From a virus: a stretch of DNA of 43,285 bases. Every line of letters begins with the position of its first letter. Within the stretch, counting starts at the first letter, position 1. The notes beneath the pieces were generated by a model. The model had not been told where the DNA came from and ran no database searches. It worked only from the letters and a program-made list of their open reading frames with translations. The stretch spans positions 1 through 43,285 of the IMG/VR virus record IMGVR_UViG_3300035016_000029; one strand, 5' to 3'. A program made the position numbers and the translations under genes. This document shows positions 4,184 through 35,245 of the stretch, piece by piece.

Positions 4184-4217
4184 TTCCATTGTGGAATATC
4201 GAATCAAGGTTTGCTAG
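4184..4217 (+). promoter_or_regulatory. Possible promoter of the three-gene cassette
   Basis: TTGTGG at 4189-4194, a 17-base spacer and TGCTAG at 4212-4217 form a passable sigma-70-like pair, 24 bases upstream of the TTG start at 4242. A small palindrome TTCCA-TTG-TGGAA (4184-4196) overlaps the -35 and could be an operator. Pattern match only. Confidence 0.3.
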
Positions 4218-4241
4218 CGAGCGTGTCGGGGAGATCTTTAG

Positions 4242-6099: not shown

Positions 6100-6106
6100 G
6101 CCCTTC

Positions 6107-6685
6107 ATGGGAGAGCCAGCTAACGCGATAACAACGGCGCAAGCCGTCGGCTGGTCCGTAACAGGTATCGGGATCGTAATTAGTCTCGGCTGGAATTTCT
6201 ATAACTCTTGGCGAACACGAAAAGTCGCCGAGCAATTGCGAACAGAGCAATACCGCGCTGGGCAGTGGGCACGTGTGCGTGATCGGATTGAAAGCGCGTT
6301 AGACGATCTGGTCGATGCGAGCAGAGTCGTCGTGCACCAAGCACAGCAGCTTGATGAGTCTAACTTTCAGTCCAAAGTGGTTGGCGTCCTTTTGATCCTA
6401 CTCGTCGATGCCCAGGACAAGCTCGCAAGTGCGTTAGAAGAGGCCAAGCTTTCCGCCTACTGCGAAGGGGACCATTGGTACGACGCCGCCAATGGCAAAA
6501 GGCAAGGCAGTGAGACCTCGTGGGACAATGTAATTAGGATCATGGCGGAGGCTGAAGCGGCGGGAAATAAGTCGGACATGGTTGCAGCACTCAAAGCCCT
6601 TAAAAGTCCGATTGGCGAAATTCGCACCGCAGTGAACCAGTGTTGCCGCGCCCAAGACATGCTGCTGGATCCCGAAAAAATCTGA
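6107..6685 (+). CDS. Membrane-anchored helical protein, third gene of the cassette
   Basis: 192 aa; begins 7 bases after the STAS-like gene. One N-terminal membrane segment (about residues 12-32, VGWSVTGIGIVISLGWNFYN) is followed by a basic stop-transfer stretch (RTRK) and a long, mostly helical cytoplasmic part with coiled-coil character. It contains three cysteines, two adjacent (NQCCRAQ). I do not recognise a family. The layout (ATPase, soluble partner, membrane-anchored helical protein) would suit a sensor-effector module acting at the membrane. No clear Shine-Dalgarno precedes the ATG, consistent with translation coupled to the preceding gene. GC is visibly low relative to flanking phage genes. 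Confidence 0.6.
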   Translation: MGEPANAITTAQAVGWSVTGIGIVISLGWNFYNSWRTRKVAEQLRTEQYRAGQWARVRDRIESALDDLVDASRVVVHQAQQLDESNFQSKVVGVLLILLVDAQDKLASALEEAKLSAYCEGDHWYDAANGKRQGSETSWDNVIRIMAEAEAAGNKSDMVAALKALKSPIGEIRTAVNQCCRAQDMLLDPEKI

Positions 6686-6819
6686 ATCCGGCGACGCCGA
6701 TCGAACACAGCGATGTTTTAGAACTTCCGCTCTAGCCAGACATGCCGCGACGACTGCCTTGGTTATCCGGGATGTGTCGGCATTCGGCCCGAAGCCGCCT
6801 CAACCGACCTTCCGATCAA

Positions 6820-6838
6820 TGTAGAACCCCGCTCTACA
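6820..6838 (+). promoter_or_regulatory. Late-promoter activator site 2 (head-lysis operon)
   Basis: TGTAG-AACCCCGCT-CTACA, same arms and spacing as the other three sites. The dyad centre lies 109 bases before the scaffold start at 6938 and 55 bases before an in-frame ATG at 6884. It corresponds to the P2 PO promoter. Confidence 0.85.
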
Positions 6839-6937
6839 ATCCCCCGCGCTTGAGAAGCTGCGCCCCTTCGTCCCCTTTCGCCGATGTCACTGCGGCCATC
6901 GCCGCCAGCATCGCACCGACCAGGGGACCGCATCGCC

Positions 6938-7765
6938 ATGGCCACCAAGAGCAAGTTCTTCCGCGCGTTCGTCGAGGGGCAGACGATCAGCGACGGCCGC
7001 AACGTCACTGCCGAGATGATCGACCAAGCCGTCGAGACGTTCAACGCCGCCACTTACACCCCCGGCATCAACATCGAGCATCTGTCCGGCTTCAGCCCGA
7101 ACCCGCCCTTCAACCGCTATGGCGACATTTGCGCGGTGAAGGCGCAAACCGATGACGTCGTCATCGCCGGCAAGAGCGAGAAGCGCCGCGCGCTCTACGC
7201 CCAGGTCGATGCCCTCGATCAGCTGGTCGAGCTGGCGAAGAGCGGCCAGAAGCCCTTCCCCTCGGTCGAGCTGACCGCCGACTACGCTGGCACCGGCAAG
7301 GTCGGCCTGGTCGGCCTCGCCTTCACCGACAACCCAGCAAGCATCGCCACCGAGAAGCTCGCCTTTTCGCGCTCGGCAACCGTTCATCGCACGATCTATT
7401 CGACTGGCACCGAAGGGGTCGCGATCGAATTCGACGCCAAGGCTGCCGATGCGACCGGCATCACGGATGCGATCACGAACGGCCTGACCGGGTTCTTCGC
7501 CAAGTTTCGCACCGAACCGGCCAAGGAAGAGCCGGCGCCGCCCGCCAACGATAATTTCGACGCGCAGGCATTCGCCACCGCCTTCGCGGCGACGGTCGGC
7601 GAGCAGATCGCCGCTGCGATGAAGCCGGTCACCGAGACTGTCGCGGGCATCCAGACCGAGTTCGCCGACATCAAGGCGAAGCTCGAAAAGTCGCCCGACA
7701 GCAGCTTCGCGCGCGGCCCCGCCACCGGTGCAAGCCCGAACGCCCAGTTCGTCACCGACTGCTGA
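6938..7765 (+). CDS. O: Capsid scaffolding protein and maturation protease (P2 gpO family)
   Basis: 275 aa. Guides capsid assembly and cleaves capsid, connector and itself. The catalytic triad known for P2 gpO (Asp19, His48, Ser107) is visible as D19 (GQTISDG), H48 (INIEHLSG) and S109 (KPFPSVEL). C-terminal scaffolding part is helical (about 200-260). ATG 6938 puts the triad in the P2 register and has AGGGGAC about 9 bases upstream. An in-frame ATG at 6884 would add 18 residues of low-complexity sequence; it is 55 bases from the activator dyad, so a minor longer form cannot be excluded. First gene of the rightward head-lysis operon. Confidence 0.95.
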   Translation: MATKSKFFRAFVEGQTISDGRNVTAEMIDQAVETFNAATYTPGINIEHLSGFSPNPPFNRYGDICAVKAQTDDVVIAGKSEKRRALYAQVDALDQLVELAKSGQKPFPSVELTADYAGTGKVGLVGLAFTDNPASIATEKLAFSRSATVHRTIYSTGTEGVAIEFDAKAADATGITDAITNGLTGFFAKFRTEPAKEEPAPPANDNFDAQAFATAFAATVGEQIAAAMKPVTETVAGIQTEFADIKAKLEKSPDSSFARGPATGASPNAQFVTDC

Positions 7766-13601: not shown

Positions 13602-13865
13602 TCAGGCGTCGTCTTCCGCGTAAGCAATCAGCCGCTGGCACCTCTGGTCGGCAGGCCCTGCCAGCCCCTCGATGACTTCGCGAGCAATGAAAGTCTCAAG
13701 GAAATAGTCGAAAAGCACGCCGTCGCGCTCCACCGGTTCAGTGGTGTCCGGCGCTGGCGATACGAGCACCGCATCCGCATCGCATGACCATGGCCGCGCA
13801 ACGTAGATGGTCGTGTCGTCATCGGACCAAGTTGATGCGCCGTCCATAAGTTCGATTAGCCGCAT
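13602..13865 (-). CDS. Hypothetical acidic protein (87 aa)
   Basis: Starts MRLIELMDGASTWSDDD at ATG 13865, with GGAGG shortly upstream. Contains a run of strands (TTIYVARPWSCDADAVLVSP) and an acidic C-terminus ending AYAEDDA. I do not recognise a family; small, strongly acidic proteins like this are common in phage cargo. The frame is open further upstream, but that part is the repeat DNA at 13911-14000. It reads opposite to the late operon and probably has its own promoter. Confidence 0.6.
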   Translation of the reverse strand: MRLIELMDGASTWSDDDTTIYVARPWSCDADAVLVSPAPDTTEPVERDGVLFDYFLETFIAREVIEGLAGPADQRCQRLIAYAEDDA

Positions 13866-13910
13866 GCCGCCCTCCGTCGCTTGCCGGGGTATCGTGGGGC
13901 GTGAATGACC

Positions 13911-14000
13911 GCAACGGGGTCGCTTGCGGCAGGTCCGGTTTCGAGATCGCGTTCCAAGCGCGGGACCCGCTGAAACCGGATTCGCGGAACGGCCGCTTGA
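13911..14000. repeat. Dispersed repeat, long copy E
   Basis: Shares with the copy at 17707-17795 the ordered blocks GCAACGGGGTCG, TTGCGG, a TCGCG block, AGCGCGGGA and CCGCTGAAA. Lies between the 87-aa gene and the SDR gene. No coding potential. Its 3' end diverges, where other copies carry TTGGGTGG. Confidence 0.5.
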
Positions 14001-14036
14001 GAGGGGTGGAGCTGAAAACGAACGGCTCATTCCGCG

Positions 14037-14789
14037 TTAGAGCTTCACAGCAGCGTTGCCGCCGTCAGCCCACAAAGCTGAGCCCGTAACGAAGCTCGCC
14101 ATGTCGCTGGCGAGAAACAATGCCGCCTTGGCAATTTCCTCGGGGTCAGCGATCCGCTTCATCGCATGCAAACCAGCAGCCCATTCGCGCTGCGCTACAT
14201 CGCCAGCCATCTCAGTAGCGGTGCCTCCTGGCAGGAGGGCGTTCACCCGAATGCCCGCGGTGGAATAGTCCGCTGCTATGCCGCGCACCAACCCCATGAG
14301 CCCTGCCTTGGCGGTCGCATAGGCACTCATGCCCGGTAGTCCCACGCTGTTCCCAACAAAGCTGCTGGTAAACACGAGAGCGCCCGTTCCATGCTTCAGC
14401 ATTGCCGGGATTTGTGCTCGGGCCCCCAGGAACGCTGCCGTTAAGTTGGTCGTCAGCACCTCTTGCCATTCCCGAGGCTCTACATCGGCCAAGGGCTTGA
14501 TGGCGCCGACCAAACCCGCGTTGTTGAACCCGATATGCAACCCCCCAAAGGTTGACTGGGCAGCAGCCACGGCCTTCTGGTGCGTGCGCTCGTCGGCTAC
14601 GTCTCCCACTATCGCGAGGGCGCGACCTCCGGCGTCCCGGATGTCGCGGACCAACTGATCCAGCGGTCCGTGCCGGCGGGCAATTAGCACGACGGCGGCC
14701 CCGTTCGCGGCAAACAACGTTGCTGCCGCTTTTCCTATTCCCGAGCTCGCGCCCGTAATGATGGCGACTTTACCGTCGATCAGTCTCAT
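14037..14789 (-). CDS. Short-chain dehydrogenase/reductase (SDR family)
   Basis: 250 aa, normal length for classical SDRs. NAD(P)-dependent oxidoreductase; substrate unknown. Complete signature: TGASSGIG (12-19) for cofactor binding, NNAG (89-92), the catalytic serine near 142 (TSSFVG) and YATAK with Y157 and K161. The C-terminus has the typical FVTGSALWADGGN. ATG 14789 is chosen because MRLIDGKVAIITG is the normal start; the frame stays open to 14855. A metabolic enzyme inside a late tail region is a cargo gene with no phage role; its intact catalytic residues suggest it is functional. Confidence 0.92.
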   Translation of the reverse strand: MRLIDGKVAIITGASSGIGKAAATLFAANGAAVVLIARRHGPLDQLVRDIRDAGGRALAIVGDVADERTHQKAVAAAQSTFGGLHIGFNNAGLVGAIKPLADVEPREWQEVLTTNLTAAFLGARAQIPAMLKHGTGALVFTSSFVGNSVGLPGMSAYATAKAGLMGLVRGIAADYSTAGIRVNALLPGGTATEMAGDVAQREWAAGLHAMKRIADPEEIAKAALFLASDMASFVTGSALWADGGNAAVKL

Positions 14790-15156
14790 TCTGTTGCTCC
14801 GCCTTGAGGGAGCGACCGAATAGGGCGCTCTCAAGATCGAAGCGTCCCAGTTCATGCCTCCAAACCGGCAGAGGCGCCGAAGCCTCGGCCCGAGCGCGAG
14901 GAACTTCCATCTGGAACGAGAGGTTTAGCAGTCATGGGGCGGGGATTTACTCCCATGTTGCCCGTCCTGCGCCTACCCCGATGTGGCCTAACAGCCTTCC
15001 CGGGGCCGCACAGCGGCGCGACCTATCCCCCCGGAACCCGGTCGCGCCGCTGTGCGGATAGCCGCCAGGCGTTGATCGCTAAACGGGGCGGCGGGAAAAT
15101 AGGACCGCCCAGCGCGCCGAGCCGGAAATATCGGGCCACGCTCGCATTGTCCTACG
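14790..15156. other. Gene-poor stretch with a very strong hairpin
   Basis: No convincing gene. It holds the promoter side of the SDR gene, the 18-bp perfect inverted repeat at 15006-15057 and a smaller hairpin (GGGCGG/CCGCCC) near 15085-15110. The open frames here are short and compositionally like non-coding DNA. Confidence 0.5.
15006..15057. repeat. 18-bp perfect inverted repeat
   Basis: Left arm 15006-15023 (CCGCACAGCGGCGCGACC) and right arm 15040-15057 are exact reverse complements, separated by a 16-base loop containing CCCCCC. It is the longest perfect stem I found in the window. It could be a structured RNA, a REP-like element, a strong terminator or a mobile-element remnant. Confidence 0.8.
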
Positions 15157-15393
15157 ATGCCCCGTTATTAATTCCACTCGGTCCATAACGGCGTCGTGCG
15201 CGACGGCGAGGGAATGCAGCTACGTGATATTGATCACGCTAAACGCCATGCCACCCTATTCGCGGGCGATCTGCTCAAGGAAGTGGACGGAGGCGTGTTC
15301 ACCGACGACCTAGGCATCGATGCGACCAATGACCGAGGCGTGCTTCTATTCCGCATTGCGATCAGCGGCAACGTGGCACCAGGTACGGGGTAG
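15157..15393 (+). pseudogene. DUF6894-like gene with an early in-frame stop
   Basis: The frame from ATG 15157 reads MPRY, then TAA at 15169-15171, then FHSVHNGVVRDGEGMQL, DIDHAKRHATLFAGDLL and NDRGVLLFRIAI to a TAG at 15393. DUF6894 proteins usually start MPRYYFHV or MPRYFFHV, so the stop replaces a single aromatic codon. The rest (about 73 codons) is intact and family-like. Expression could restart at GTG 15196, giving 65 aa without the first strand. Probably a recent nonsense mutation; a sequencing error is also possible. Confidence 0.65.
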
Positions 15394-15477
15394 AACGCGA
15401 GACATCCGCTTCGTTTGTTCATTCTGGGTGCTTTTGGTATGTCTGCGCGGTCGGGGGGCGACTCGACGGAGTAGGCC

Positions 15478-15645
15478 ATGTCGGAAACGGCATCCCAGTA
15501 TTACACACGGCGCGCTGCGCAGGCTCGCACGATGGCTGCGAAGGCATCAGACATATCAGCCCGCCAAGCTCACGAGGTTCTAGCAGCGCAGTACGAGCGC
15601 ATGGCGTCCGGGCAGCCCGCGAAGCTGAACATGGTGGCTAGCTGA
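15478..15645 (+). CDS. Small conserved-type protein (55 aa, YYTRRA)
   Basis: ATG 15478 preceded by GGAG about 8 bases upstream. Product MSETASQYYTRRAAQARTMA followed by an alanine-rich helix and AHEVLAAQYERMA. The pattern of YYxRRAxQ, a short helix and AH-x2-LAxxYE resembles a family of tiny helical proteins common in sphingomonads; function unknown. A hairpin follows the stop codon, consistent with a short independent transcript. Confidence 0.65.
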   Translation: MSETASQYYTRRAAQARTMAAKASDISARQAHEVLAAQYERMASGQPAKLNMVAS

Positions 15646-15650
15646 TAGCA

Positions 15651-15681
15651 GAAAGGCCCGGTCGCTGTGATCGAGCCTTTC
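15651..15681 (+). terminator. Hairpin after the 55-aa gene
   Basis: GAAAGGC (15651-15657) pairs with GCCTTTC (15675-15681) around a GC-rich loop, six bases after the stop codon. The right arm carries a short T-run, so it may terminate transcription. Confidence 0.4.
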
Positions 15682-15780
15682 CGGCGTGCCCGCGAAATGC
15701 CGCTATAGTAGACCCGCCACACATGATCCAGGCGATGACCGCTTCTAGGGGGAGGTGGTCACGATTTTGAGGATAGACCT

Positions 15781-15933
15781 TCAAGGATTGGGCGGGTTGC
15801 CCTTCGTGCGCGTGGCCAGGCCAAACCCCAAGCCAAGGGCTGCGCCTATCGCAATTCCCAGTGCGATGTTGTCCATAGCCACGCCTATTGCGACGCCTAT
15901 GGCGACGCCGATCGCGAGATATTTGCCGACCAT
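15781..15933 (-). CDS. Small glycine-zipper membrane protein (50 aa)
   Basis: ATG 15933 with a strong GGAGAAGG directly upstream. Product starts MVGKYLAIGVAIGVAIGVAM and continues with alternating small residues to LGLGFGLATRTKGNPPNP. The repeated G-V-A-I pattern is a glycine zipper, expected to cross the membrane and oligomerise. Possible toxin-like or membrane-stress protein; function unknown. The overlapping longer frame upstream (to 16118) would run into its start. Confidence 0.65.
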   Translation of the reverse strand: MVGKYLAIGVAIGVAIGVAMDNIALGIAIGAALGLGFGLATRTKGNPPNP

Positions 15934-16118
15934 ACCTTCTCCATGCTTTCAGCTAAGCCTAGCTGGCTTGCAGGGTGCTTTTGCCTATCGTCGGCAAGCG
16001 GGCGCTCGTGCAGTTCTGCGAGACGCGCGAGGGCGGCAACCCGCTTTACCGTAGTTCCCACCTGTCCCTGTGATTCGATGGGATCTGCCGGCAGGCAAGT
16101 AGGCGGTTCGGCTGCCAC
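15897..16118 (-). CDS. Uncertain small protein (73 aa)
   Basis: GTG start at 16118 with a poor ribosome site. The central part (VKRVAALARLAELHERPLAD, then QKHPASQLGLAESMEKV) looks like a real helical protein. It overlaps the start of the glycine-zipper gene by 37 bases, as translationally coupled genes can. The ends of the protein look less convincing. No family recognised. Confidence 0.35.
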   Translation of the reverse strand: MAAEPPTCLPADPIESQGQVGTTVKRVAALARLAELHERPLADDRQKHPASQLGLAESMEKVWSANISRSASP

Positions 16119-16296
16119 CTGGGTCGATCCGACTCCGACTAGTCGGCGACGCTCGGACGATGCTCTGGCAACGGGGCGGTGCCATGCGCCTGCGCATGTC
16201 GCCGCTCGTCGCCGTTATGCTTCGGAGCGCAGCAGGCGCATGGCGACATCTTCGGTTGCCTCGCGCCTGCAGCTGCTGCCCGTCGTGCATGACGGT

Positions 16297-16407
16297 TCAC
16301 TGATAACCGCCTTCTTCCTCGCGTCTCTCGGCGGCGTCCTCCTGCGCCTCGACCAGCTCCGTGTCCTCGTTGTTGTCGCGCTCGGTCTCTTCCGGGTTGG
16401 TAATCAT
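16297..16407 (-). CDS. Small acidic protein (36 aa)
   Basis: ATG 16407 with AGGAGA 7-8 bases upstream, an excellent ribosome site. Product MITNPEETERDNNEDTELVE, then AQEDAAERREEEGGYQ: nearly all charged, disordered, strongly acidic. Very short acidic peptides of this style occur widely in sphingomonads. The overlapping rightward frame has no such ribosome site. Confidence 0.55.
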   Translation of the reverse strand: MITNPEETERDNNEDTELVEAQEDAAERREEEGGYQ

Positions 16408-16496
16408 GATCGGTCTCCTTGGTGAGCGAACGCATGAATCCCGCGATAGATGCGGCCTGTCGTTGACCCCGTGAAGTGCGGCGCTAGGACGAAGGT

Positions 16497-16844
16497 GTGG
16501 TGATCTCGATCCTGGACGCTGCCCTGTTAGCGGCTGCCGGACAAGTGCCCATCGGGCCGTGTCAGGTCGTGGACGGAGACACCCTGCGTTGCGGCGAAAA
16601 GCGCATCCGCCTGCTTGGAATCGACGCGCCGGAGAGGGGCAAGTGCCGGGTTGGCCGCAAATGTTCACCCCGCGACCCGTACGCGTCTCAGCGTAGCCTA
16701 GCGGCGGCAACCACAGGCAAGCTAACGATCAAGCGCGTCGGAACCGATCGCTACGGTCGGACGCTGGCACGGGTTCGGGGATCGAAGGGTGACCTATCAT
16801 GCTTGCAGCTCAGGAAGCGTCAGGCGATGTACCGGCGCGACTGA
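16497..16844 (+). CDS. Thermonuclease family protein (SNase-like)
   Basis: 115 aa, GTG start at 16497 (a second GTG follows at 16500) after an AGGACGAAG stretch. Calcium-dependent nuclease fold: VVDGDTLRCGEKRIRLLGID with D26, D28 and R38, DAPE with D43 and E46, and DRYGRTLA with R88, matching the catalytic Arg-Glu-Arg set and calcium-binding Asp residues of staphylococcal nuclease. A hydrophobic start (ILDAALLAAAGQVP) could be a weak signal peptide. It appears intact, unlike the frameshifted relative at 32497-32845. Confidence 0.85.
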   Translation: MVISILDAALLAAAGQVPIGPCQVVDGDTLRCGEKRIRLLGIDAPERGKCRVGRKCSPRDPYASQRSLAAATTGKLTIKRVGTDRYGRTLARVRGSKGDLSCLQLRKRQAMYRRD

Positions 16845-16938
16845 GACAATGGGCTGAGGGTATTTCGCGCATGTCCATCCGCCTTGAGCCTTCATCGCTG
16901 GTAGGAGCAGCCCTGATAGCGGACATAGCCGGACGGCC

Positions 16939-16965
16939 GGAAATGGGTGGTAAGCGGACGCTGTC
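16939..16965. repeat. Dispersed repeat, partial copy B
   Basis: GGAAATGGGTGGTAAGCGGACGC matches the 3' part of the longer copies. Lies between the thermonuclease and DUF4279 genes. (Sequence given here is split: GGAAATGGGTGG, then TAAGCGGACGC.). Confidence 0.45.
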
Positions 16966-16981
16966 GTGGTAGGCTTATGTC

Positions 16982-17392
16982 ATGGGTGAACTGCACAGAT
17001 CGTCTGCGTCTCTCGGCTTCTATGGTGACGACCTTGATCCCCAAGAATTATCCGACCGCTTGGGAGGTGAGCCGACCGTGGGCGTCCGCAAGGGTGGCAA
17101 GTGGCGGACTGAAAGCGGCGTCGAAAAGGTCGCCCACACCGGGTCTTGGCGAGTAAGGGTTCCAGACTGTGCCCCAGCCGATCTCGACGGTCAGATCAAC
17201 GATCTGCTCGACCGCTTCACAGCCGACTTGTTGGCGTGGAGGAGCTTTGCTCGGAAATATCGGGGCCGGATATTTTGCGGGTTATTTCTTGAAACGGGAA
17301 ACGAAGGCATTTCCTTGCAGCCTGAAACGCTGGCTCGCCTTGGCGAGCGTGGCTTGCTGATCGATCTCGACATCTACGGTGCAACGGACTGA
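16982..17392 (+). CDS. DUF4279 domain protein
   Basis: 136 aa. Starts MGELHRSSASLGFYGDDLDP and shows the family pattern: FYGDDLDPQELSDRLGGEPT, a GKWRTESG glycine-rich loop, HTGSWRV, DLDGQINDLLDRF, and a terminal LQPETLARLGERG followed by LLIDLDIYG. DUF4279 proteins are small, cytoplasmic and of unknown biochemical function; some sit near polymorphic toxin systems as possible immunity proteins, which is not shown here. Flanked by repeat copies, suggesting it belongs to a mobile cargo segment. Confidence 0.8.
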   Translation: MGELHRSSASLGFYGDDLDPQELSDRLGGEPTVGVRKGGKWRTESGVEKVAHTGSWRVRVPDCAPADLDGQINDLLDRFTADLLAWRSFARKYRGRIFCGLFLETGNEGISLQPETLARLGERGLLIDLDIYGATD

Positions 17393-17395
17393 ACG

Positions 17396-17520
17396 TCCGC
17401 AATGGGGTCGAAACGAGAAAGTCGGCTTGTAGCAAAATTTGGGACGAAGCTGCCTGACCGGTCTTGGAATCGCGAATGGCCACCGGGAACGGCTGAAATT
17501 GGGTGGTTAGCTGCCATTGC
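17396..17520. repeat. Dispersed repeat, long copy C
   Basis: Contains CGCAATGGGGTCG at the left end and a TCTTGGAATCGCGAATGG block, GGGAACGGCTGAAATTGGG and TGGTTAGCTGCCATTG at the right, in the same order as copy D but with an insertion in the middle. It ends 10 bases from the stop codon of a small leftward gene. No gene seen in it. Confidence 0.5.
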
Positions 17521-17529
17521 CTCAGGCAG

Positions 17530-17676
17530 TCAAAAGAACCACCATATGGCCACGCCGACCATGGCGAATGGGGATAGCGCGAGGATGATCGCAGTGAGCC
17601 AAGCGGCGGGCCGACCAAACCGGTCTTCGGTCCACTCAACGAGGACAGCTAACCAGCGAACTAAGGCGGGCGTCAT
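17530..17676 (-). CDS. Small membrane protein (48 aa)
   Basis: ATG 17676 to TGA at 17530: starts MTPALVRWLAVLVEWTEDRF and ends with a membrane segment (AAWLTAIILALSPFAMVGVA) and IWWFF. Good codon use for the organism and an amphipathic start followed by a hydrophobic helix support a real gene; the ribosome site is weak. It sits exactly between repeat copies C and D. Function unknown. Confidence 0.5.
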   Translation of the reverse strand: MTPALVRWLAVLVEWTEDRFGRPAAWLTAIILALSPFAMVGVAIWWFF

Positions 17677-17706
17677 CGCCGCATCTTACGCGACATCAGA
17701 CCGACT

Positions 17707-17795
17707 GTAACGGGGTCGTTTGCGGTCGGGCCGCTGTTGGGGTCGCGATACGAGCGCGGGAACCGCTGAAATTGGGTGGGAGGCGGTCACTGCGG
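17707..17795. repeat. Dispersed repeat, long copy D (reference copy)
   Basis: Blocks in order: AACGGGGTCGTTTGCGG, GGGCCGCTGTTGGGGTCGCG, GAGCGCGGGAACCGCTGAAA and TTGGGTGGGAGGCGGTCACT. About 90 bases; two other long and two short partial copies lie in 13571-17520. No terminal inverted repeats or target duplication evident, so it is not an obvious insertion sequence. Confidence 0.55.
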
Positions 17796-17921
17796 TTAGC
17801 GGTTCGTAAGCATCAAGCGCGGAGTGAGCCAGTCGCGGGTCTCCCCCGAGCACGGCGATGTGATCAGGCACTTGCTCCCTACGGCCCTGCCGTGCATCCC
17901 ATCTGCCGGGAGGAAGCAAGC

Positions 17922-18710
17922 ATGAGCGGAACAGGGTCGAGCGACGAGGCGTCGGCTACCGATACCGATAGGCCGCCTACGCCGAAGAGGCGATTCATCT
18001 TTGCTGGCTTTGGGCGCAGCAGTGATGGCCAACGCGGCTTCCTGGCCGAGGTGGGCATCATCGTGCTCGGTGTGCTCGTGGCGCTCTCGGGCGAGCAGGC
18101 AGTGCAGGCGCTACGCTGGAGCCATCTTGTCGCTCAGCAACGTGAAGTGCTCTCCGATGAGTTGCGCGGTGTACTCACGGAAGCGTCGGTTCGCCTTCTG
18201 CAGCGGCCTTGCTTCGAGCGAAGACTTCGGGAACTGCGTGTCGTGCTGGAGCGGAACAGGCAGGGTGCGCCGCTCGACCTGCGCGGCAAGCTCGGCGCGC
18301 CAACCTACACGCAGGCATCGACCGGCGCATGGGCCACCGCCCTCAACAGCGAGACACTGGACCACATGCCCCTTGCGGAGCGGCAGGAATGGGGCGGCGC
18401 TTTCGAAGGGGGAGGCGAACTGGCAGAGGTTTACAAGGCCGAGAGCGAGGTCTGGGTAGAGCTGAGCCGGATCGATCACGTCGCCCTCCTCGAATCCGAA
18501 GATTGGGCCGCCCTGCGCACCGCTTTTGCAAGAGCGCACGCGCTGAATGATCGCGCGGTATTTTTGTCAGACTGGGCGCTGGAAAACAATTCGAGGGGCC
18601 TAAGCCCGCATCCAATCACCCTTCAGCAGATCGTGTCGCTCAAGGAGACCACTCGCGCTTTCTGCGAGCCGCTCCTCGCGAAGTCGAGCGTTGATACGAG
18701 TCCCATGTAA
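17922..18710 (+). CDS. Membrane-anchored protein of unknown function (262 aa)
   Basis: ATG 17922 preceded by GGAGG about 9 bases upstream; the open frame continues upstream to 17772 without a better start. Residues 1-38 are polar, then one membrane segment (FLAEVGIIVLGVLVALSGEQ, about 40-59) and a long helical soluble domain. The AEVGIIVLGVLVAL-x-EQ motif recurs in a family of sphingomonad and xanthomonad membrane proteins whose function is unknown. Two cysteines only (PCFERRL, FCEPLL). It ends about 95 bases before the third late-promoter site, so it is cargo between late operons. Confidence 0.7.
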   Translation: MSGTGSSDEASATDTDRPPTPKRRFIFAGFGRSSDGQRGFLAEVGIIVLGVLVALSGEQAVQALRWSHLVAQQREVLSDELRGVLTEASVRLLQRPCFERRLRELRVVLERNRQGAPLDLRGKLGAPTYTQASTGAWATALNSETLDHMPLAERQEWGGAFEGGGELAEVYKAESEVWVELSRIDHVALLESEDWAALRTAFARAHALNDRAVFLSDWALENNSRGLSPHPITLQQIVSLKETTRAFCEPLLAKSSVDTSPM

Positions 18711-18804
18711 ACGGCAAGCAGGGTTCGAACTGCTGTCAATGCCTGCTTTGGGGTCGGGAGCCGTCGGGCAGCTTTTTCCAAAATCTTTCTAGCTAACGCG
18801 GCCT

Positions 18805-18823
18805 TGTAGTAACGCTTTCTACA
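18805..18823 (+). promoter_or_regulatory. Late-promoter activator site 3 (J-I-H operon)
   Basis: TGTAG-TAACGCTTT-CTACA; the dyad extends to CTTGTAG/CTACAAG (18803-18825). Its centre is 56 bases from the GTG start of gene J. Nearly identical to site 4. Confidence 0.88.
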
Positions 18824-18869
18824 AGAGCGCGGGGTCGCATAGCTCCACCCAACCCGCCGACATGGCGGT

Positions 18870-19760
18870 GTGTCAGACACCGCATCCAGCTCGACCGCAA
18901 TCGACCTGTCGCGCCTTCCCGCGCCCAGCTTCCTCGCGCCGCTGTCCTATGAGCAGGAGCGGGCCGACTTGGTCGCGTTCTTCCAGACTGTCCTGCCGGA
19001 ATTCGACGCCACGATTCCCTCCGATCCGGCGGTGAAGCTGCTCGAAGTGATCGCCTATTACGTCATGCTGAAGGGGCAAGAGTTCAACGAACGCGCCCTG
19101 CAGACCATGCTCGCCTATGCGACGGGCGCGGATCTCGATAATCTGGGCGCGCTGGTCAACGTCGAGCGGCTGATCATCGAGGAAGCGAGCGGCTCAGACC
19201 CCGCCGTCTATGAAAGCGACGCGGATCTGCGCCGCCGCATCCAGCTCGCACCCGAGAGCTTCAGCGTCGCCGGTCCCGCGACCGCCTATCGCTTTCACGC
19301 ACTCTCGGCCGACGCGACGATCGCCGATGCGCTCGCGACAAGTCCAACCCCTGGGGCCGTGCTGGTCACGATCCTGTCTCGGCTCGGCGACGGCACCGCC
19401 TCACCCGATCAGATCGCGGCGGTCGAGGCCGTCGTCACCTCGCGAGAGGTGCGACCGCTGACCGACATGGTCACTGTCGCCTCGGTCGAGCTGATCGCCT
19501 TCACCGTCCTCGCGACGCTCACCCTGTTTCACGGCCCCGACGCCGTCGTGGTGCTTGCGGCTGCCGAGGAACGGCTCGACGCCTATATCGCCGATGCGCG
19601 CAAGATCGGCCGCCCCGTGACGCGGTCGGGCATCATCGCCGCACTGCATGTCGAGGGCGTGCTCAACGTCGCGCTGGCGCATCCCGCCGCCGACATCTTG
19701 CCCAACGGCACCCAGCTCGCCCATTGCACCGGTACCGACGTGATGCTGGCCGATGACTGA
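18870..19760 (+). CDS. J: Baseplate assembly protein J (P2 gpJ family)
   Basis: 296 aa, as in P2 gpJ (302). Starts with GTG 18870; a nearby ATG (18862) is out of frame. The opening AIDLSRLPAPSFLAPLSYEQ and later VKLLEVIAYYVMLKGQEFNE, RALQTMLAYATGADLDNLGA and YESDADLRRRIQLAPESFSV are typical. Forms the baseplate wedge with gpI and gpW. No Shine-Dalgarno is visible before the GTG. P2 places J after V and W; here it starts an operon of its own, directly after an activator site. Confidence 0.95.
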   Translation: MSDTASSSTAIDLSRLPAPSFLAPLSYEQERADLVAFFQTVLPEFDATIPSDPAVKLLEVIAYYVMLKGQEFNERALQTMLAYATGADLDNLGALVNVERLIIEEASGSDPAVYESDADLRRRIQLAPESFSVAGPATAYRFHALSADATIADALATSPTPGAVLVTILSRLGDGTASPDQIAAVEAVVTSREVRPLTDMVTVASVELIAFTVLATLTLFHGPDAVVVLAAAEERLDAYIADARKIGRPVTRSGIIAALHVEGVLNVALAHPAADILPNGTQLAHCTGTDVMLADD

Positions 19761-20418
19761 TCTCCTGCCTCCCGCCAGCACACCGCTTGAGCAGGCCTTT
19801 GCGCAAGCCGCCGCGCGCGTCGGCGATATCCCGGTTGATGTCGCGACGCTCTGGAACCCAGCGACCTGCCCGATCGCCAGCCTGCCTTGGCTGGCCTGGA
19901 CCTTGTCGGCGGACCGCTGGAACGCAGACTGGAGCGACGCGGAAAAGCGTGAGGCTGTCGCCGGCGCGATTGCTGCCCAGCGTATCAAGGGCAGCCGCCT
20001 CGCGGTCGAACAGGCGCTGCAATCGCTCGATGACCTTCTGCAGTTGGTCGAATGGTTCGAAGCCTCGCCGCAGCTCGATCCCTACACTTTCGAAGTGCGG
20101 CTGCCGCTGATCGATGCCGAGGGCGTCGCCGGCGGCACGCGCGTCTCGGCTGAGTTCGCCCGCCAGATCATCGCCGATGTCACGCGCGCGAAGCCGGTGC
20201 GCGCCCATTTCGCCCTGGTCCAGCAGCTCGAACTGATCGGGCTCCCCGCCCTGGTCGGCGCGGCCCATGGCGCAGCCTATCGCCGCCTTGATGGCGCCGC
20301 CGCCGCGTCGCCCGTCGGCTTCGATCCCGACACGCCCTGGGGCGACCTGCTCCAGGATGAGAATGGCGAGCCGCTGCAGGACGATTTCGGGAACTTCATC
20401 GACGGGACCGCGCCATGA
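19753..20418 (+). CDS. I: Tail protein I (P2 gpI family)
   Basis: 221 aa. Typical gpI opening (LLPPASTPLEQAFAQAAAR, VDVATLWNPATCPIASLPWL, AWTLSADRWNADWSDAEKRE) followed by IAAQRIKGSRLAVEQAL. Baseplate periphery protein linking J to the tail fibre. The C-terminal ~40 residues (after GAAYRRLDG) are an acidic extension. Overlaps J by 8 bases and H by 4 (ATGA). Confidence 0.94.
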   Translation: MTDLLPPASTPLEQAFAQAAARVGDIPVDVATLWNPATCPIASLPWLAWTLSADRWNADWSDAEKREAVAGAIAAQRIKGSRLAVEQALQSLDDLLQLVEWFEASPQLDPYTFEVRLPLIDAEGVAGGTRVSAEFARQIIADVTRAKPVRAHFALVQQLELIGLPALVGAAHGAAYRRLDGAAAASPVGFDPDTPWGDLLQDENGEPLQDDFGNFIDGTAP

Positions 20419-21923
20419 CCGCACCACTTCAGTTCGTGATCACCGATGCTGGTCGCGCGGCCCTGATCGATGCCGAAGGTGGAGGGACCGCCGCAGCCCT
20501 GATCGCAGAGGTCGGCGTGACTGCTGCGGTCTTCATCGCAGCCCCGACGCTCACCGCGCTGCCCGGCGAAATCAAGCGCATCAACACGATCGCCGGATCT
20601 GCGGCCGATGCCGACACCGTCCACCTGATCGTCCGGGATTCCAGCGACGACGAATATATTGCGCGCGGCCTTGGCTTCTATCTCGAGGACGGGACGCTGT
20701 TTGCCGTCTACAGCCAGGCCGATCCGTTCCTCGGCAAATATGCCGCGTCGCATTTCCTCACCGCGATCGACCTCAAATTCCTTGATGGTGAAGCCGACCT
20801 GATCACGTTCGGCGATTCCAATTTCCTCAACCCGCCTGCGACTGAAAGCGAGAAGGGCGTCGCCTATCTCGCCACGATCGCCGAGGCGCTGGCCGGAGCG
20901 GTCGCGGAAAAGATCATCACGCCCGCGACGATGGCGGCGGTGCTCGCCAGCTATGTCGCGGCGGACCAGCTCGGCGTTGCAAACGGCGTCGCCACGCTCG
21001 GCCCCGATGGCAAACTCCTCCTGTCGCAGCGCCCGCCGATCGACCTGATCGACGTGTTCCCTGCGGCGAGCCAAGCCGCGATGCTCGCGCTCGCCGCCAC
21101 GGTCGGCGACTTCGCTGTCCGAACCGACAACGGCCTCGTCTATGTCCTTCAGGCCGCGCCAGCGACCGTCCTTGCCAACTGGCTTGAAATCTCGACGCCG
21201 GCACCGGTGTCGAGCGTCAACGGCAAGGTCGGCACCGTCGTGCTGACTGCGGCGGACGTTGGCGCTGTGCCGACGGCCCGCTCCATCGGCGTTACCGGTG
21301 GGCTGCTTACTGGCGGCGGAGACCTTTCCGCAAATCGCACCATCGGATTGGTTGCCGCCACCCAAGCTGAATGTTTCGCCGGCGTTGTGGGCGACCGCGT
21401 CGTTACGCCGAGCGGACTTGGGCCGCTCATCGTAGCGCTCGGGACCAAGGCGTCAGCCGGTGCAACCGTCGGGGGAAGCGGCCTGGTCAGTGGGGGGGGC
21501 GAGATCTCCGGTAACCCGGTCCTCTCGGTAATCGCCGCGACCGTGGCCGAACTGGCGGCGCGCGCCGCGAACCGCGCGATCTCGCCGGTGACCCTCGCCA
21601 ACCTGCCCAAAAGCCTCACACCGAATGGCTACCTGACCCTGCCCTTCCCCGACGAAGAAGGCCGGTTCCCGATCCTGCAATGGGTCACCTATCGCAGCGT
21701 GATCCTTCTGGAGAGTGCTCCGTACGTCTCGTGGCCGATCGTCTTTCCCAACGGGATCCTGTTCGGAGGGGCGACCGGCTATCTCGCCGCACCCTCCTCG
21801 GCGCGCAACCTCTGGCCGCAGCTCGCCGCACCCACGACGTTCGGGACTTACGTCCAGCTGCAGCGGGTCACCGACGTCGATCTGCGCGTCGATGGCTTCG
21901 ACGTCTTCATGCTTGGTTATTGA
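20415..21923 (+). CDS. H: Tail fibre protein (P2 gpH-like N-terminus)
   Basis: 502 aa. N-terminal baseplate-attachment domain of gpH type: PLQFVITDAGRAALIDAEGG and GLGFYLEDGTLFAVYSQADP, then KITPATMAAVL-like linker sequence. The shaft has repeated glycine-rich segments (SVNGKVGTVVLTAADVGAVP; GGLLTGGGDLSANRTIGLV; GSGLVSGGGEISGNPVLSV). The last ~100 residues (GYLTLPFPDEEGRFPILQWV, then WPIVFPNGILFG) look like a receptor-binding tip of the gp53-like type. Host range determinant. Starts inside the gpI stop codon. Confidence 0.9.
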   Translation: MTAPLQFVITDAGRAALIDAEGGGTAAALIAEVGVTAAVFIAAPTLTALPGEIKRINTIAGSAADADTVHLIVRDSSDDEYIARGLGFYLEDGTLFAVYSQADPFLGKYAASHFLTAIDLKFLDGEADLITFGDSNFLNPPATESEKGVAYLATIAEALAGAVAEKIITPATMAAVLASYVAADQLGVANGVATLGPDGKLLLSQRPPIDLIDVFPAASQAAMLALAATVGDFAVRTDNGLVYVLQAAPATVLANWLEISTPAPVSSVNGKVGTVVLTAADVGAVPTARSIGVTGGLLTGGGDLSANRTIGLVAATQAECFAGVVGDRVVTPSGLGPLIVALGTKASAGATVGGSGLVSGGGEISGNPVLSVIAATVAELAARAANRAISPVTLANLPKSLTPNGYLTLPFPDEEGRFPILQWVTYRSVILLESAPYVSWPIVFPNGILFGGATGYLAAPSSARNLWPQLAAPTTFGTYVQLQRVTDVDLRVDGFDVFMLGY

Positions 21924-21935
21924 GGGGAAGGCGGC

Positions 21936-22403
21936 ATGTTCTTCAGCCCATCCACCGGCGGCTTCTACGATCCGGCCATCAACCGCGACATTCCCGCCGA
22001 TGCAGTGCGGATCTCGCGCGAACGTCATGGCGAGCTGATCGCCGCCCGAGCCGCAGGAAAAATCATCGCCCCCGATCGCGCGGGCCGTCCGGTTGCTCGC
22101 GAACCGCGCATCGGTATCGACCAGCTCCGCACCCGCGCCGTCGCATCGGTCAAGGGCGAAGCCCGTCGCCGCATTCTGGCGGTCGCCAGCCTTGAGCAAC
22201 AGGCCAATGACAATGCGACCATCGCGATTGAGGCGTTCGCCGGGGTCGGGGCGGATATGGAAGGCGCGCTCGACCGCCGGGCTCGAATCGATGCGATCCG
22301 CACCGCGTCCAACGCGATCGAGGCCCAGATCGCCCGCATGCCCGCCGCGAACCTCACCGCTTTCGATCCTTCCTTACACCCCCTGTGGCCGGAGCATTCC
22401 TGA
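21936..22403 (+). CDS. Tail fibre assembly/chaperone-like protein
   Basis: 155 aa. Starts MFFSPSTGGFYDPAINRDIP and continues ADAVRISRERHGELIAARAA, GKIIAPDRAGRPVA, the layout of phage tail fibre assembly proteins (gpG/Tfa-like) that open with a short description of the fibre tip and a helix. Directly after the fibre gene, as chaperones usually are. The C-terminal half is helical. Its stop overlaps the next start (TGATG). Confidence 0.75.
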   Translation: MFFSPSTGGFYDPAINRDIPADAVRISRERHGELIAARAAGKIIAPDRAGRPVAREPRIGIDQLRTRAVASVKGEARRRILAVASLEQQANDNATIAIEAFAGVGADMEGALDRRARIDAIRTASNAIEAQIARMPAANLTAFDPSLHPLWPEHS

Positions 22404-22624
22404 TGGCGAAGATCTCCGAATTGCCTATCGCGACAGACCCGGATGGCACCGAATGGGTGCCGATTGTTCAGGACAGCATCGCCAAGCGGGTTCGTCTGAG
22501 CAGCATCGGGGGAGGCACCGGCGGCCCGACGATGGTCCCGCTCGTATCCGGCGCCCTGCCTGGCCCCGATTTTCTGGCTGACGATTTCGGCCGCCCGATC
22601 TTCGTTCCTTATGTGGAGTCCTAA
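22403..22624 (+). CDS. Small tail-associated protein (73 aa, MAKISEL type)
   Basis: Starts MAKISELPIATDPDGTEWVP, IVQDSIAKRVRLSSI. This opening (MAKISELP-x-A-x4-G-x-E-x-VPIVQ) recurs in phage fibre proteins as an N-terminal module; here it is a stand-alone small protein ending RPIFVPYVES. Probably a fibre adaptor or part of the second receptor-binding complex. Confidence 0.65.
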   Translation: MAKISELPIATDPDGTEWVPIVQDSIAKRVRLSSIGGGTGGPTMVPLVSGALPGPDFLADDFGRPIFVPYVES

Positions 22625-22627
22625 TCC

Positions 22628-24322
22628 ATGACCCGGCTTTCCGATTTCCACGGCATCGGCCCCCTCGCTGATAGGCCCAGCGCGGCGGCGGCCCATGCGC
22701 TCCGCGCTGATGCGTCGCATCTCGCCTTGACCTGGACGGACAGCGGCACGGGCACCCTTTATGGCTTGAACCTCGCGGGCACCGGATGGATGGCGATTGG
22801 CGGCGGCGGCGGCGGTGGCGTCTCGACGTTCGCGGCGCTCAGCGACACCCCGGCTGGCTACGCGGGCCAGGCCAACAAGCTGTTGCGCGTCAACGCCGGC
22901 GCGAATGCGGTCGAGTTCGCGCAGGCAGTCTTCGCGATGCTGGCAGAGGCGCCCGCCGGCGCGTTCTCGCTGGGCGCGAACAAGATGCTGGTCGGCAATG
23001 AAGCAGGGACCGCGTTCGAGTGGCGGACGCCGCCTGCCGGGCTGAGCGGTCCGTCGCTGGTGCTTTCGCCGCCGGAGCTGACGGCTGGGAACAATTATGT
23101 GACTGTCATCATCGACAGCCCGAAGGCATCCGGCCTCATCAACAGCAATGGCGGAGATGACGGCGTGAGCTGCCGTCTCATTCAGAACGCATCGCGGGTT
23201 ACGAATGGGCCGACCTCGCAGCCGAACTACTATAATGTGGTCTTCGGGCTCGGATACAATTCCACCCCGGCATTCACGCCATCGAACACGGCAATGCCGT
23301 CAGCCTCGTTCCGCATCGAGAGTAAGTTCGCCCAAGGTGGGCCGAGCGATCCGTTCATGGCCGAGTTCCATGCGTCGCTGTTCCCGGCCAGTGATCCGTC
23401 GATCGAGTTCCGCGCCCTGAGCGCGACGGTCCCGCACTTGATCGCCGACTGGAACGGCGCAGGTGCCAGCTATTCGATGCGGTCGAACAACTTCCGCTTC
23501 ATCAGCGGCATTGGCACGGATCGCCTTAGCTTCCGTTTCGGCGGCATGGGTAACGAGGTCGAGTTCATCGATAGCGGTGCCGGACTCCCGCACCCCAAGC
23601 TGTTCTTCGGCACCAACAACCGTCCGACCGTCGAGCAGTGGAACGCGGCCAAGACCGGCTTGCTGCCCGCGCCGTATCGCAACAGCAACGACAACACGCA
23701 TATTGGGGGCGGCGCACTTTATATCGTCGGCACGGCGCAGGCGACCCCGAGCGGTTCGGGCAACTGCGGCATTGACCTGAATATCACGAGCGGTGGGGCG
23801 GCGGGGATGCGCGGCGTCAATGTGCAGATGCCCGCCGTGACCGGCGATGCCTATGGCGCGTTCATCAACGCCAGCGGCGTGACGGGGCGCGTCGATTTCC
23901 ACGTCCTGTCGACCACCGGCAAGCCGACCTTCAACCTGCAGACTGGGGACAACGCCAGCAGCGACATGATGCTGTGCTTCACGAACCAGGGTTCAGGGGC
24001 AAGCTTCACCATCGGCTATGACAACAGCGACGGCGACAAGCTCAAGGTCGAGAAGAGCTTCAAGAGCGTGGGATCGTCGAGCGCCCTGTTCTTCGAGTGC
24101 GATCCTGCGATCAACGTGACCCGTTTCGCCATGCCGCCCAAGCTGCCTAGCTACACGGTTGCGGGACTTCCTGCCGCCGCGACGGTCGGGGCCGGGTCCA
24201 AGGCATATGTCACCGATTTGAACGCCACCACTGCCGCCAGTGTCGCGGCTGGGGGTGGCTCCAACAAGGGCGAGGTCATTTGCGACGGCACCAATTGGCG
24301 CATCGTCGTCGCGTGGGCGTAA
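22628..24322 (+). CDS. Second large tail fibre/structural protein (564 aa)
   Basis: Starts at ATG 22628, four bases after the MAKISEL-type gene. Glycine-rich hinge (IGGGGGGGVSTFAALSDTPA) near residue 57 is followed by GYAGQANKLLRVNAGANAVE and LGANKMLVGNEAGTAFEW, common in phage fibre shafts. The middle is strand-rich and unrecognised; the end (YTVAGLPAAATVGAGSKAYV, then GEVICDGTNWRIVVAWA) is typical of phage fibre C-termini. No enzymatic residues are evident. Likely a second receptor-binding protein or side fibre. Confidence 0.75.
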   Translation: MTRLSDFHGIGPLADRPSAAAAHALRADASHLALTWTDSGTGTLYGLNLAGTGWMAIGGGGGGGVSTFAALSDTPAGYAGQANKLLRVNAGANAVEFAQAVFAMLAEAPAGAFSLGANKMLVGNEAGTAFEWRTPPAGLSGPSLVLSPPELTAGNNYVTVIIDSPKASGLINSNGGDDGVSCRLIQNASRVTNGPTSQPNYYNVVFGLGYNSTPAFTPSNTAMPSASFRIESKFAQGGPSDPFMAEFHASLFPASDPSIEFRALSATVPHLIADWNGAGASYSMRSNNFRFISGIGTDRLSFRFGGMGNEVEFIDSGAGLPHPKLFFGTNNRPTVEQWNAAKTGLLPAPYRNSNDNTHIGGGALYIVGTAQATPSGSGNCGIDLNITSGGAAGMRGVNVQMPAVTGDAYGAFINASGVTGRVDFHVLSTTGKPTFNLQTGDNASSDMMLCFTNQGSGASFTIGYDNSDGDKLKVEKSFKSVGSSSALFFECDPAINVTRFAMPPKLPSYTVAGLPAAATVGAGSKAYVTDLNATTAASVAAGGGSNKGEVICDGTNWRIVVAWA

Positions 24323-24336
24323 CGGAGGAAGTGAAT

Positions 24337-24834
24337 ATGGAAATCAAGACGCGGCAGATTGCGCTCTGCCTTGACGATGCGGGCACTATCACGGGCGTCG
24401 AGGCGCGGCGCGAGGCGGTCTATGCCGATGGCGCGCGGCGCATCCTCGATGCCGAACCGGCGACGACGGAGGAGTTCCTGTCCATTTTGACCGGAGAGGA
24501 TGCCGATCTCGGCGCCGCGCTGGCAACGAAGGTGGCTCAGCTGCAGGGAGCATCCGCGATCAACACGGCGCTGGATGCACAGATTGTCGGCGTTCGTGCC
24601 GAGCTGGCTAATGCTCAGGCGACGATCGACGCCCAGGCCGAAACCATCGCCGCGCAGAATGCGGCCGCTGCTGAGCTCAACGGGCGCGTCGCATCGGATG
24701 AGTCGCAGATCCGCACTCTGCAACGCCTCGTCTCGGTCGAGCAGGAGACCAGCGCCAACTTGCGTGCCGAGGTGGCGAAGCTGCAGGCCAAGGTTGTCGA
24801 ACCGCAGGGAGAAATCGCCGCCGAGCCGATTTAA
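24337..24834 (+). CDS. Coiled-coil protein following the second fibre (165 aa)
   Basis: ATG 24337 with GGAGGAA about 7 bases upstream. Starts MEIKTRQIALCLDDAGTITG; residues 60-155 form a long heptad-rich helix (VAQLQGASAINTALDAQIVG, VRAELANAQATIDAQAETIA and so on). Could be a fibre chaperone or a trimeric coiled-coil stalk. Last gene of the J operon; a hairpin follows. Confidence 0.65.
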   Translation: MEIKTRQIALCLDDAGTITGVEARREAVYADGARRILDAEPATTEEFLSILTGEDADLGAALATKVAQLQGASAINTALDAQIVGVRAELANAQATIDAQAETIAAQNAAAAELNGRVASDESQIRTLQRLVSVEQETSANLRAEVAKLQAKVVEPQGEIAAEPI

Positions 24835-24842
24835 GGTCGTTC

Positions 24843-24871
24843 GCCCGGTGGGACAGAATGCACCGTCGGGC
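24843..24871 (+). terminator. Imperfect hairpin before the V operon
   Basis: GCCCGGTG (24843-24850) can pair with CACCG-T-CGGGC (24861-24871) with one bulged T. It lies between the end of the J operon and the fourth activator site. No T-run follows. Confidence 0.3.
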
Positions 24872-24887
24872 AACACCCCCCTCCCCT

Positions 24888-24906
24888 TGTAGTAACCCTT
24901 TCTACA
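24888..24906 (+). promoter_or_regulatory. Late-promoter activator site 4 (V-W-FI-D operon)
   Basis: TGTAG-TAACCCTTT-CTACA; arms extend to CTTGTAG/CTACAAG (24886-24908). Differs from site 3 at one spacer base. Centre 56 bases from the gene V ATG. TCATAAC at 24940-24946 is a plausible -10 that would start transcription at or beside the ATG. Confidence 0.88.
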
Positions 24907-24952
24907 AGACCGCGCCCGCGCGTGCTTCCGGGGGCGCGGTCATAACGTCGCC

Positions 24953-25516
24953 ATGAGCGACCCCGCCGACTCTCAGCGCATCATTGGCGATCTGTTCCGC
25001 TTGGGGACCGTACTGTCCGTCGATCTCTCGGCGGGCACCTGCCGCGTGCAGATCGGCGACATTGAAACCGGCGATCTCCCCTGGCTCGCCGGATCGGCGG
25101 GGGAAACCCATATCTGGATGCCGCCCAGCGAGGGCGAACAGGTTGCCGTCATCGCGCCCGAAGGCGACACCCGCGCCGGCATCGTGCTGCGCGGCCTCCC
25201 CAGCGACGCCAACCCCGCCCCCGGCGACAGCCGCACCGTCGTCATGATCTTCGCCGATGGCGCGCGCATCTCCTACGATCCCGAGGAACAGTATCTTGAG
25301 GCGCGGCTTCCCGAAGGCGGCCGCGCCAAGCTGCTCTGCGACGTCGAGATCGACGGCAAGCTCAAGGTGACGGGCGACGTCCAGATGGATACCAAGCTCC
25401 ATGTCGATGGCGAGATCGCAAGCGACACCGACGTCAAGGCAGCGGCGATCAGCCTCAAATCCCACAAGCACATTGGCGTGCAGGCTGGCGCTGCCCAGAC
25501 CGGGGCAGCGGTATGA
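24953..25516 (+). CDS. V: Baseplate assembly/spike protein V (P2 gpV family)
   Basis: 187 aa (P2 gpV 211). N-terminal OB-fold region (LFRLGTVLSVDLSAGTCRVQ, then WMPPSEGEQVAVIAPEGDTR), then strand repeats, and a tip with SHKH (H171 and H173), the HxH motif that binds iron in the P2-type membrane-piercing spike. Start ATG 24953 lacks a Shine-Dalgarno and lies 56 bases from the activator dyad. Overlaps gpW by four bases. Confidence 0.95.
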   Translation: MSDPADSQRIIGDLFRLGTVLSVDLSAGTCRVQIGDIETGDLPWLAGSAGETHIWMPPSEGEQVAVIAPEGDTRAGIVLRGLPSDANPAPGDSRTVVMIFADGARISYDPEEQYLEARLPEGGRAKLLCDVEIDGKLKVTGDVQMDTKLHVDGEIASDTDVKAAAISLKSHKHIGVQAGAAQTGAAV

Positions 25517-34443: not shown

Positions 34444-34934
34444 CCCTCGTCCGCGACCCCCTCACCTTTTCGAAGGCGATCAGCACGATCGCCGGGCGCA
34501 TCGACTTTCCGGCGATGGCCGCAATCGTCGGGCGCAGCGAGCGGCTCGTGCGCAAATGGTCGCACCCGCAGTCGAACGCGCATCCGACGGTCGCACAGGG
34601 GGTCGCCCTCGACCTCGCTTACATCGAGGCGGGCGGCGACACCGCGCCGATCTCCGAAACCTATCTCCAGCTGCTCGATCGCGGCATCGGTGAGCGCATG
34701 GCCAACCGGCTTGCCCTCACTGCCGCTGTGGCGAACGCGGTGAAGGAAAGCGGCGACGCCTTTGCGGCCGTGCTTGCCGTCACCCATCCCGGTGCCGGGC
34801 CTCGCGAGGTCCACCGCGCCGAACATGAACTAGAAGAAGCCCAATCTGCGATGGCGGTCGTTGGCCGGCGTCTCTCGTCTTTCCATCCTCTCGGCGCGGG
34901 GCCGGGCGGGGAAACTGTGGGGGGAACCCAATGA
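34440..34934 (+). CDS. Putative phage regulatory protein (CII-like)
   Basis: 164 aa, GTG start overlapping the Cro-like stop. N-terminal helix-turn-helix-like part: FSKAISTIAGRIDFPAMAAI, VGRSERLVRKWSHPQSNAHP, VAQGVALDLAYIEAGGDTAP; then a helical region (MANRLALTAAVANAVKESGD). This resembles CII/CP76-type phage regulators. Could control integration, replication or the switch. Stop overlaps the Ogr-like start (ATGA). Confidence 0.65.
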   Translation: MTLVRDPLTFSKAISTIAGRIDFPAMAAIVGRSERLVRKWSHPQSNAHPTVAQGVALDLAYIEAGGDTAPISETYLQLLDRGIGERMANRLALTAAVANAVKESGDAFAAVLAVTHPGAGPREVHRAEHELEEAQSAMAVVGRRLSSFHPLGAGPGGETVGGTQ

Positions 34935-35245
34935 CTGCCAAGAAACCACGTCTTCCGGGGATCCACTGCCCCCATTGCGGCGATCGTTCGATCGTGCGCG
35001 ACAGCGTCCAGGTGACGCCGATCGTGCGTGAGCTGCGCCTCGTCTGCGACAACATCGATTGCGGCCATTATTTCGTCGCGCAGCTCAGTGTGATCCGCAC
35101 CGTGCGGCCCAGCGCCTGCCCGAACCCCGACATCCACCTCCCGACCGGAAAATGGGCCAGCCAGCCGGCGAACGACGACACGCCCGCGCCTGCCAACGAT
35201 GAGCGGCCGCCCGCGGCGACCGAGGCCGCTCCCATGAGCGGCTGA
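34931..35245 (+). CDS. ogr: Ogr/Delta-like late transcription activator
   Basis: 104 aa. C13-x2-C16-x22-C39-x4-C44 reproduces exactly the cysteine spacing of P2 Ogr, which binds one zinc. After the finger, GHYFVAQLSVIRTVRPS matches the conserved Ogr segment that follows. Ogr activates P2 late promoters by binding a dyad near -55 and contacting RNA polymerase alpha. It is the expected activator of the four TGTAG-N9-CTACA sites here. The protein is about 30 residues longer than P2 Ogr because of a Pro/Ala-rich tail. It is in the early regulatory operon, which differs from P2 where ogr lies near gene D. Confidence 0.88.
   Translation: MTAKKPRLPGIHCPHCGDRSIVRDSVQVTPIVRELRLVCDNIDCGHYFVAQLSVIRTVRPSACPNPDIHLPTGKWASQPANDDTPAPANDERPPAATEAAPMSG

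Follow-up and report, generated by a model that had tools for sequence, protein, structure and literature searches.

Late promoters of P2-like phages

The closest described precedent is found in phage P2, in whose record (NC_001895 / AF063097) the transcription start annotated for the V operon, 10308, coincides with the first base of V. A leaderless V message is thus already recorded for P2 and, in that sense, known; no paper stating it was found in the literature searched, and the claim rests on this GenBank feature. The dyad of the P2 V promoter lies about 57 bp from the V start, with TAGC at -36 and the sequence CAATCT about 7 nt upstream of the ATG, and TAGC at -36 is also present at P2 F. 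The annotated transcription starts of P, O and F of P2 are 55–59 bp from the annotated activator-site centres, and the messages made from PP, PO and PF carry leaders of 23, 40 and about 25 nt, respectively.

In Stenotrophomonas phage Smp131, the annotators proposed two Ogr-type promoters, PJ′ and PV′ (PMC3931495). They demanded an upstream ribosome-binding site and annotated V at an internal GTG (PMC3931495), and the proposed PJ′ site, which falls inside annotated J, could not be confirmed. Leaderless messages are also common from the chromosomes of alphaproteobacteria, with 119 in Zymomonas (leaders of 5 nt or less; PMC7566282) and 171 in Sinorhizobium meliloti (PMC3616915). These likewise start at the initiation codon, but from host promoters and not from phage Ogr promoters. 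The Zymomonas TSS-seq reads were aligned to plasmids as well, pZM36 included (PMC7566282).

Activator dyads in the window

The window analysed here is an entire virus record of 43,285 bp with a P2-like late region, in which portal, terminase P, scaffold O and capsid genes are followed by J, I, H, G / V, W, FI and others. J, V, O and P were identified by Pfam and PHROGs, and each of the promoters described below sits before a late structural operon. Judged by the relatives of the phage, whose named hosts are Sphingomonas, Novosphingobium, Sphingobium, Erythrobacter, Croceicoccus, Altererythrobacter, Brevundimonas and one Pseudoxanthomonas, the host is a sphingomonad. The window also encodes a late activator of the Ogr/Delta family (34931–35245, plus strand) with a CX2C...CX4C zinc-binding domain, for which the PF04606 match at 34964–35104 scored above the cut-off (57.1 bits, E 9e-17).

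An exact dyad, CTTGTAG-N9-CTACAAG, occurs on the plus strand before both J (18803–18825, centre 18814, CTTGTAG-TAACGCTTT-CTACAAG) and V (24886–24908, centre 24897, CTTGTAG-TAACCCTTT-CTACAAG). With up to 3 mismatches allowed, the 23-bp dyad has 3 matches in the window where 0.29 would be expected, and searches of the window with the P2-type pattern TGTTGT-N12-ACAACA and with plain TGT-N18-ACA returned nothing above chance. Before P, a degenerate version (10 of 12 half-site bases) is located on the minus strand at 4057–4077 (centre 4067), and before O a better one (11 of 12) on the plus strand at 6819–6839 (centre 6829). The dyads are predicted to bind an Ogr-family activator and to drive transcription of the late operons, those before J and V as Ogr-type promoters.

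Measured from the dyad centre to the first base of the start codon, the distance is 56 bp for J (GTG 18870), 56 bp for V (ATG 24953) and 58 bp for P (ATG 4009, minus strand), and for O it is 55 bp to an in-frame ATG at 6884 and 109 bp to the canonical ATG at 6938. The initial annotation had given these same values, all of which were exact on recomputation. It had also reasoned from P2 geometry that a dyad centred at about -55 would bring the transcription start onto the start codon, a reasoning supported by the P2 record, where the annotated V transcript begins on the first base of V.

The window thus resembles the P2 V promoter in its dyad distance, and it resembles Smp131 both in having separate J and V operons and in the spacing at V, the Smp131 dyad centre being 56 bp from the V ATG. 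It differs from P2 in operon structure, since V-W-J-I form one operon there, without a separate promoter for J; the dyad half-sites of P2 are also looser.

The V promoter

Gene V (24953–25516, plus strand; Pfam Phage_base_V and Apex) encodes the baseplate spike, and its ATG at 24953 is the predicted transcript start. TCATAAC, which had been pointed out in the -10 position, is present at 24940–24946. The -10-like box CATAAC within it (24941–24946) begins 12 nt 5′ of the ATG and ends 6 nt before it, which matches the 6–8 nt spacing of a -10 box at a leaderless start. When ATG, GTG and TTG were sought between 20 and 140 bp downstream of the dyad centre (c+20 to c+140), the only alternative in-frame start of V was a TTG at c+104.

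Related loci were gathered with V and J queries and by aligning V against viral and genome contigs; the J query retrieved zero relatives from the genome contigs, and the V alignment did retrieve some. The loci from the scan with P2 V (L111–L190) are near-identical to one another and contribute little. The comparison at V comprised 82 non-redundant upstream regions from related phages and prophages, with start codons picked by homology and not by the dyad. A TGT...ACA dyad was present within 130 nt upstream in 49 of the 82 loci, and all 49 centres lie 55–62 bp from the start, 48 of them at 55–58 (55, n=2; 56, n=17; 57, n=10; 58, n=19; 62, n=1). Because dinucleotide shuffles of the same regions give 0.22 dyads expected in total, the distance cannot be put down to chance. 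It recurs in relatives whose proteins are about 40–94% identical. A palindrome search without any sequence requirement placed most unique-best centres at 55–58.5 bp from the V start. About 40% of the V loci have no detected TGT..ACA dyad, many of these having other palindromes or none.

The region between dyad and start is also constrained. A box of the form CA[TA]NGT has its C 12–14 nt before the ATG in 53 of the 82 loci (background rate, 0.006 per position) and is missing in 26; its forms are CATGGT, CATTGT, CAATGT and CAAGGT, with CATAAC in the window. In loci whose dyad lies 58 rather than 56 bp from the start, the box is still 12–14 nt from it, which indicates that box and V start codon shift as a unit. 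The simplest reading of these alignments puts the transcription start on the first base of V or no more than about 2 nt away from it, predicted positions being good to about ±2 nt, and the V message of this phage is very likely leaderless.

The J promoter

Gene J (18870–19760, plus strand; Pfam Baseplate_J), a baseplate gene, starts with GTG, and its message is predicted to be leaderless or nearly so. In the interval c+20 to c+140, the reading frame of J contains no ATG, GTG or TTG other than the GTG at 18870, and upstream it is closed by a stop at c+26. The -35 region contains TCGC at c+21 (18835–18838), an element conserved among J promoters: TAGC or TCGC stands at c+21 across the loci, the same place at which P2 V and P2 F have TAGC. 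The -10-region sequence CGACATGG (18858–18865, c+44 to c+51) is conserved too, but is a weak match whose exact hexamer register is uncertain.

Among 57 non-redundant J loci a dyad was detected in 39, and in 35 of these it is centred 56–62 bp from the start. The other four dyads, at 48–49, belong to loci in which the start-picking rule took an ATG inside a conserved CATGG box. Around 30% of the J loci lack a detected TGT..ACA dyad, and many of these have other palindromes or none. The start codon is GTG in the clade of the window, and most relatives have ATG in its place. All 171 leaderless starts of S. meliloti are AUG, and non-AUG starts on leaderless messages are reported to be inefficient in E. 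coli (PMC3616915), so the GTG counts against a leaderless J message. The message is nevertheless likely to be leaderless or near-leaderless, with a predicted leader of 0–6 nt, and some relatives may have a J leader of a few nucleotides (2–6 nt), as their distances range from 56 to 62.

The P and O promoters

The terminase large subunit gene P (1895–4009, minus strand) has its ATG at 58 bp in the window, and the corresponding distances in the relatives L209, L211 and L009 are 57 (to a GTG), 58 and 59. With four phages at 57–59, P fits the proposed geometry better than had been claimed at first. Unlike the P2 message, with its 23-nt leader, the P message of this alphaproteobacterial group is probably leaderless or preceded by a leader of about 0–3 nt, if the spacing is a guide.

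The scaffold/protease gene O (6938–7765, plus strand) would be transcribed from the same kind of promoter, yet it is leadered. Its conserved start is 109 bp from the dyad and is preceded by AGGGGA, a Shine-Dalgarno-like sequence at the end of a leader predicted at about 50 nt, and in the relatives the O start is found at +104 to +111, in most cases behind an AGGG(GA)-type Shine-Dalgarno sequence. A leaderless O message beginning at the +55 ATG was considered and rejected, as this codon occurs only in the closest clade: L207 has GTG in its place and L009, L209 and L211 lack it, and the leadered start is conserved. Of the initial proposal that at least two late operons may begin with leaderless messages, the part concerning V and J is supported by dozens of relatives, by the lack of Shine-Dalgarno sequences and, for V, by the box 12–14 nt upstream; O, which had been listed with them at 55 bp, does not belong there.

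Translation signals

In the window, the J and V starts have no Shine-Dalgarno sequence at usable spacing, as had been stated initially, and such sequences are rare in the homologous loci too. Shine-Dalgarno-like 4-mers precede V in 11% and J in 10% of the loci, compared with 98% for FI and 100% for FII in the same loci. The second genes of the two operons overlap the first, I with the end of J (ATGACTGA) and W with the end of V (ATGA). Their Shine-Dalgarno sequences are weaker too, as expected for coupled genes, and W and I are probably translated by coupling to V and J.

Proposed mechanism and alternatives

Taken together, the alignments make it highly probable that these are Ogr-activated late promoters with transcription starts at or near the first base of V and of J, that P probably behaves likewise, and that O is leadered. 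An Ogr/Delta-family protein would bind the dyad, centred at about -56, and bring the host RNA polymerase to a promoter whose -10 box is weak. The transcript would then begin on the first base of V or no more than about 2 nt from it, on the first base of J or a few nucleotides away, and probably similarly at P. The V mRNA and, slightly less surely, the J and P mRNAs would lack a Shine-Dalgarno leader, and the ribosome would read the 5′-terminal start codon directly.

A different account would place the promoters further upstream and have J and V translated from messages with normal, short leaders, whose fixed length would account for the constant distance. The J distances of 56–62 do permit leaders of a few nucleotides; a leader with a Shine-Dalgarno sequence, however, needs at least 20 nt and would put the transcription start no more than about 36 nt from the dyad centre, against the 55–59 of P2. 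V and J moreover lack such sequences, and the V box and start codon shift together. We regard this account as unlikely.

Translation of J and V mainly from read-through transcripts of upstream operons, with the dyad promoters contributing little, is very improbable. The late genes do share a strand, and transcripts of the O operon might conceivably continue into J, but the dyads and their spacing are conserved in dozens of loci and internal initiation would find no Shine-Dalgarno sequence. Hardly credible, finally, is that V truly starts four codons upstream, about 44–46 bp from the dyad, at the ATG of the CATGGTC box: this ATG is in frame with V in 21 of the 56 boxed loci, and KL3 is annotated so, but 24 loci have it out of frame and 11 lack it (CAAGGT, CATTGT, CATAAC), the window with its CATAAC among the latter, which argues that the box is not coding.

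Distribution of the dyad geometry

The distance from dyad to start codon on which the preferred reading is built is also found with other half-sites. In the Zymomonas mobilis phage-plasmid pZM36 (L194), the late-promoter dyads (1240–1264 and 5920–5944) have a different activator half-site, TTCCCATC...GATGGGAA, and the J and V starts are both 57.0 bp from the centre; here V is taken to start at an in-frame ATG 30 nt upstream of the annotated start. Seven gamma- and betaproteobacterial Peduoviridae (Yersinia 42.18, Klebsiella phi3.1, RE2010, KS5, FLC10, Mana and Dobby) have their V start 55.5–57 bp from the centre of a TGT-N12/13-ACA dyad, and in Burkholderia phage KL3 the distance is 57 if the start is taken as the ATG nine bases 3′ of the annotated one. 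The same TGT-N12/13-ACA search found no clear V dyad in EtG, SEN1, SEN4, Shewanella M16-3, PHL101 and E. coli 520873. The spacing between dyad and V start thus appears to be a broad rule across P2-like phages, universality not being implied.

Going by the literature searched, the conservation across the family and the extension to J and P appear to be new. What was a single old annotation, that the P2 V message starts at its own AUG, becomes an apparently conserved property of a phage family, extended to J and probably to P, with exact start sites now predicted. It is possible, though doubtful, that a family-wide rule applies, by which P2-like phages give a leaderless message to the first, low-copy gene of a late operon (V, J, P), across alpha-, beta- and gammaproteobacterial hosts and unrelated half-sites and including a functional leaderless GUG at J, and Shine-Dalgarno leaders to genes for abundant proteins that open an operon (O, FI). 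Start-proximal promoters may in that case set virion stoichiometry.

Variant half-sites, GTGTGG...CCACAC, are seen at the same distance in sphingomonad relatives such as L052, L060, L068 and L077, which suggests Ogr specificity classes among them. The V start appears to be misannotated in pZM36 (L194:5989, CP023680 position 7377), KL3 (L192:1198) and Smp131 (L110:5406); in all three, homology and the dyad rule favour a different ATG. For Smp131, the N-terminal portion of V is read in another frame than the coding sequence annotated in the record. Such misplacement is explained by annotators demanding a ribosome-binding site.

Additional genes beside the late promoters

In the relatives L009, L209 and L211, as in P2, P and O share one activator dyad. 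In the window (4057–6839) about 2.4 kb of extra genes (open reading frames at 4242–5783 and 6107–6685) part P from O, with a degenerate dyad on each side, and this looks like a cargo insertion at a shared P/O promoter. The extra genes gave no convincing match to a defence family. A further 5 kb or so of genes (13602–18710), which have no PADLOC assignment as far as tested, separates the tail completion genes from the J promoter and is likely a second cargo region.
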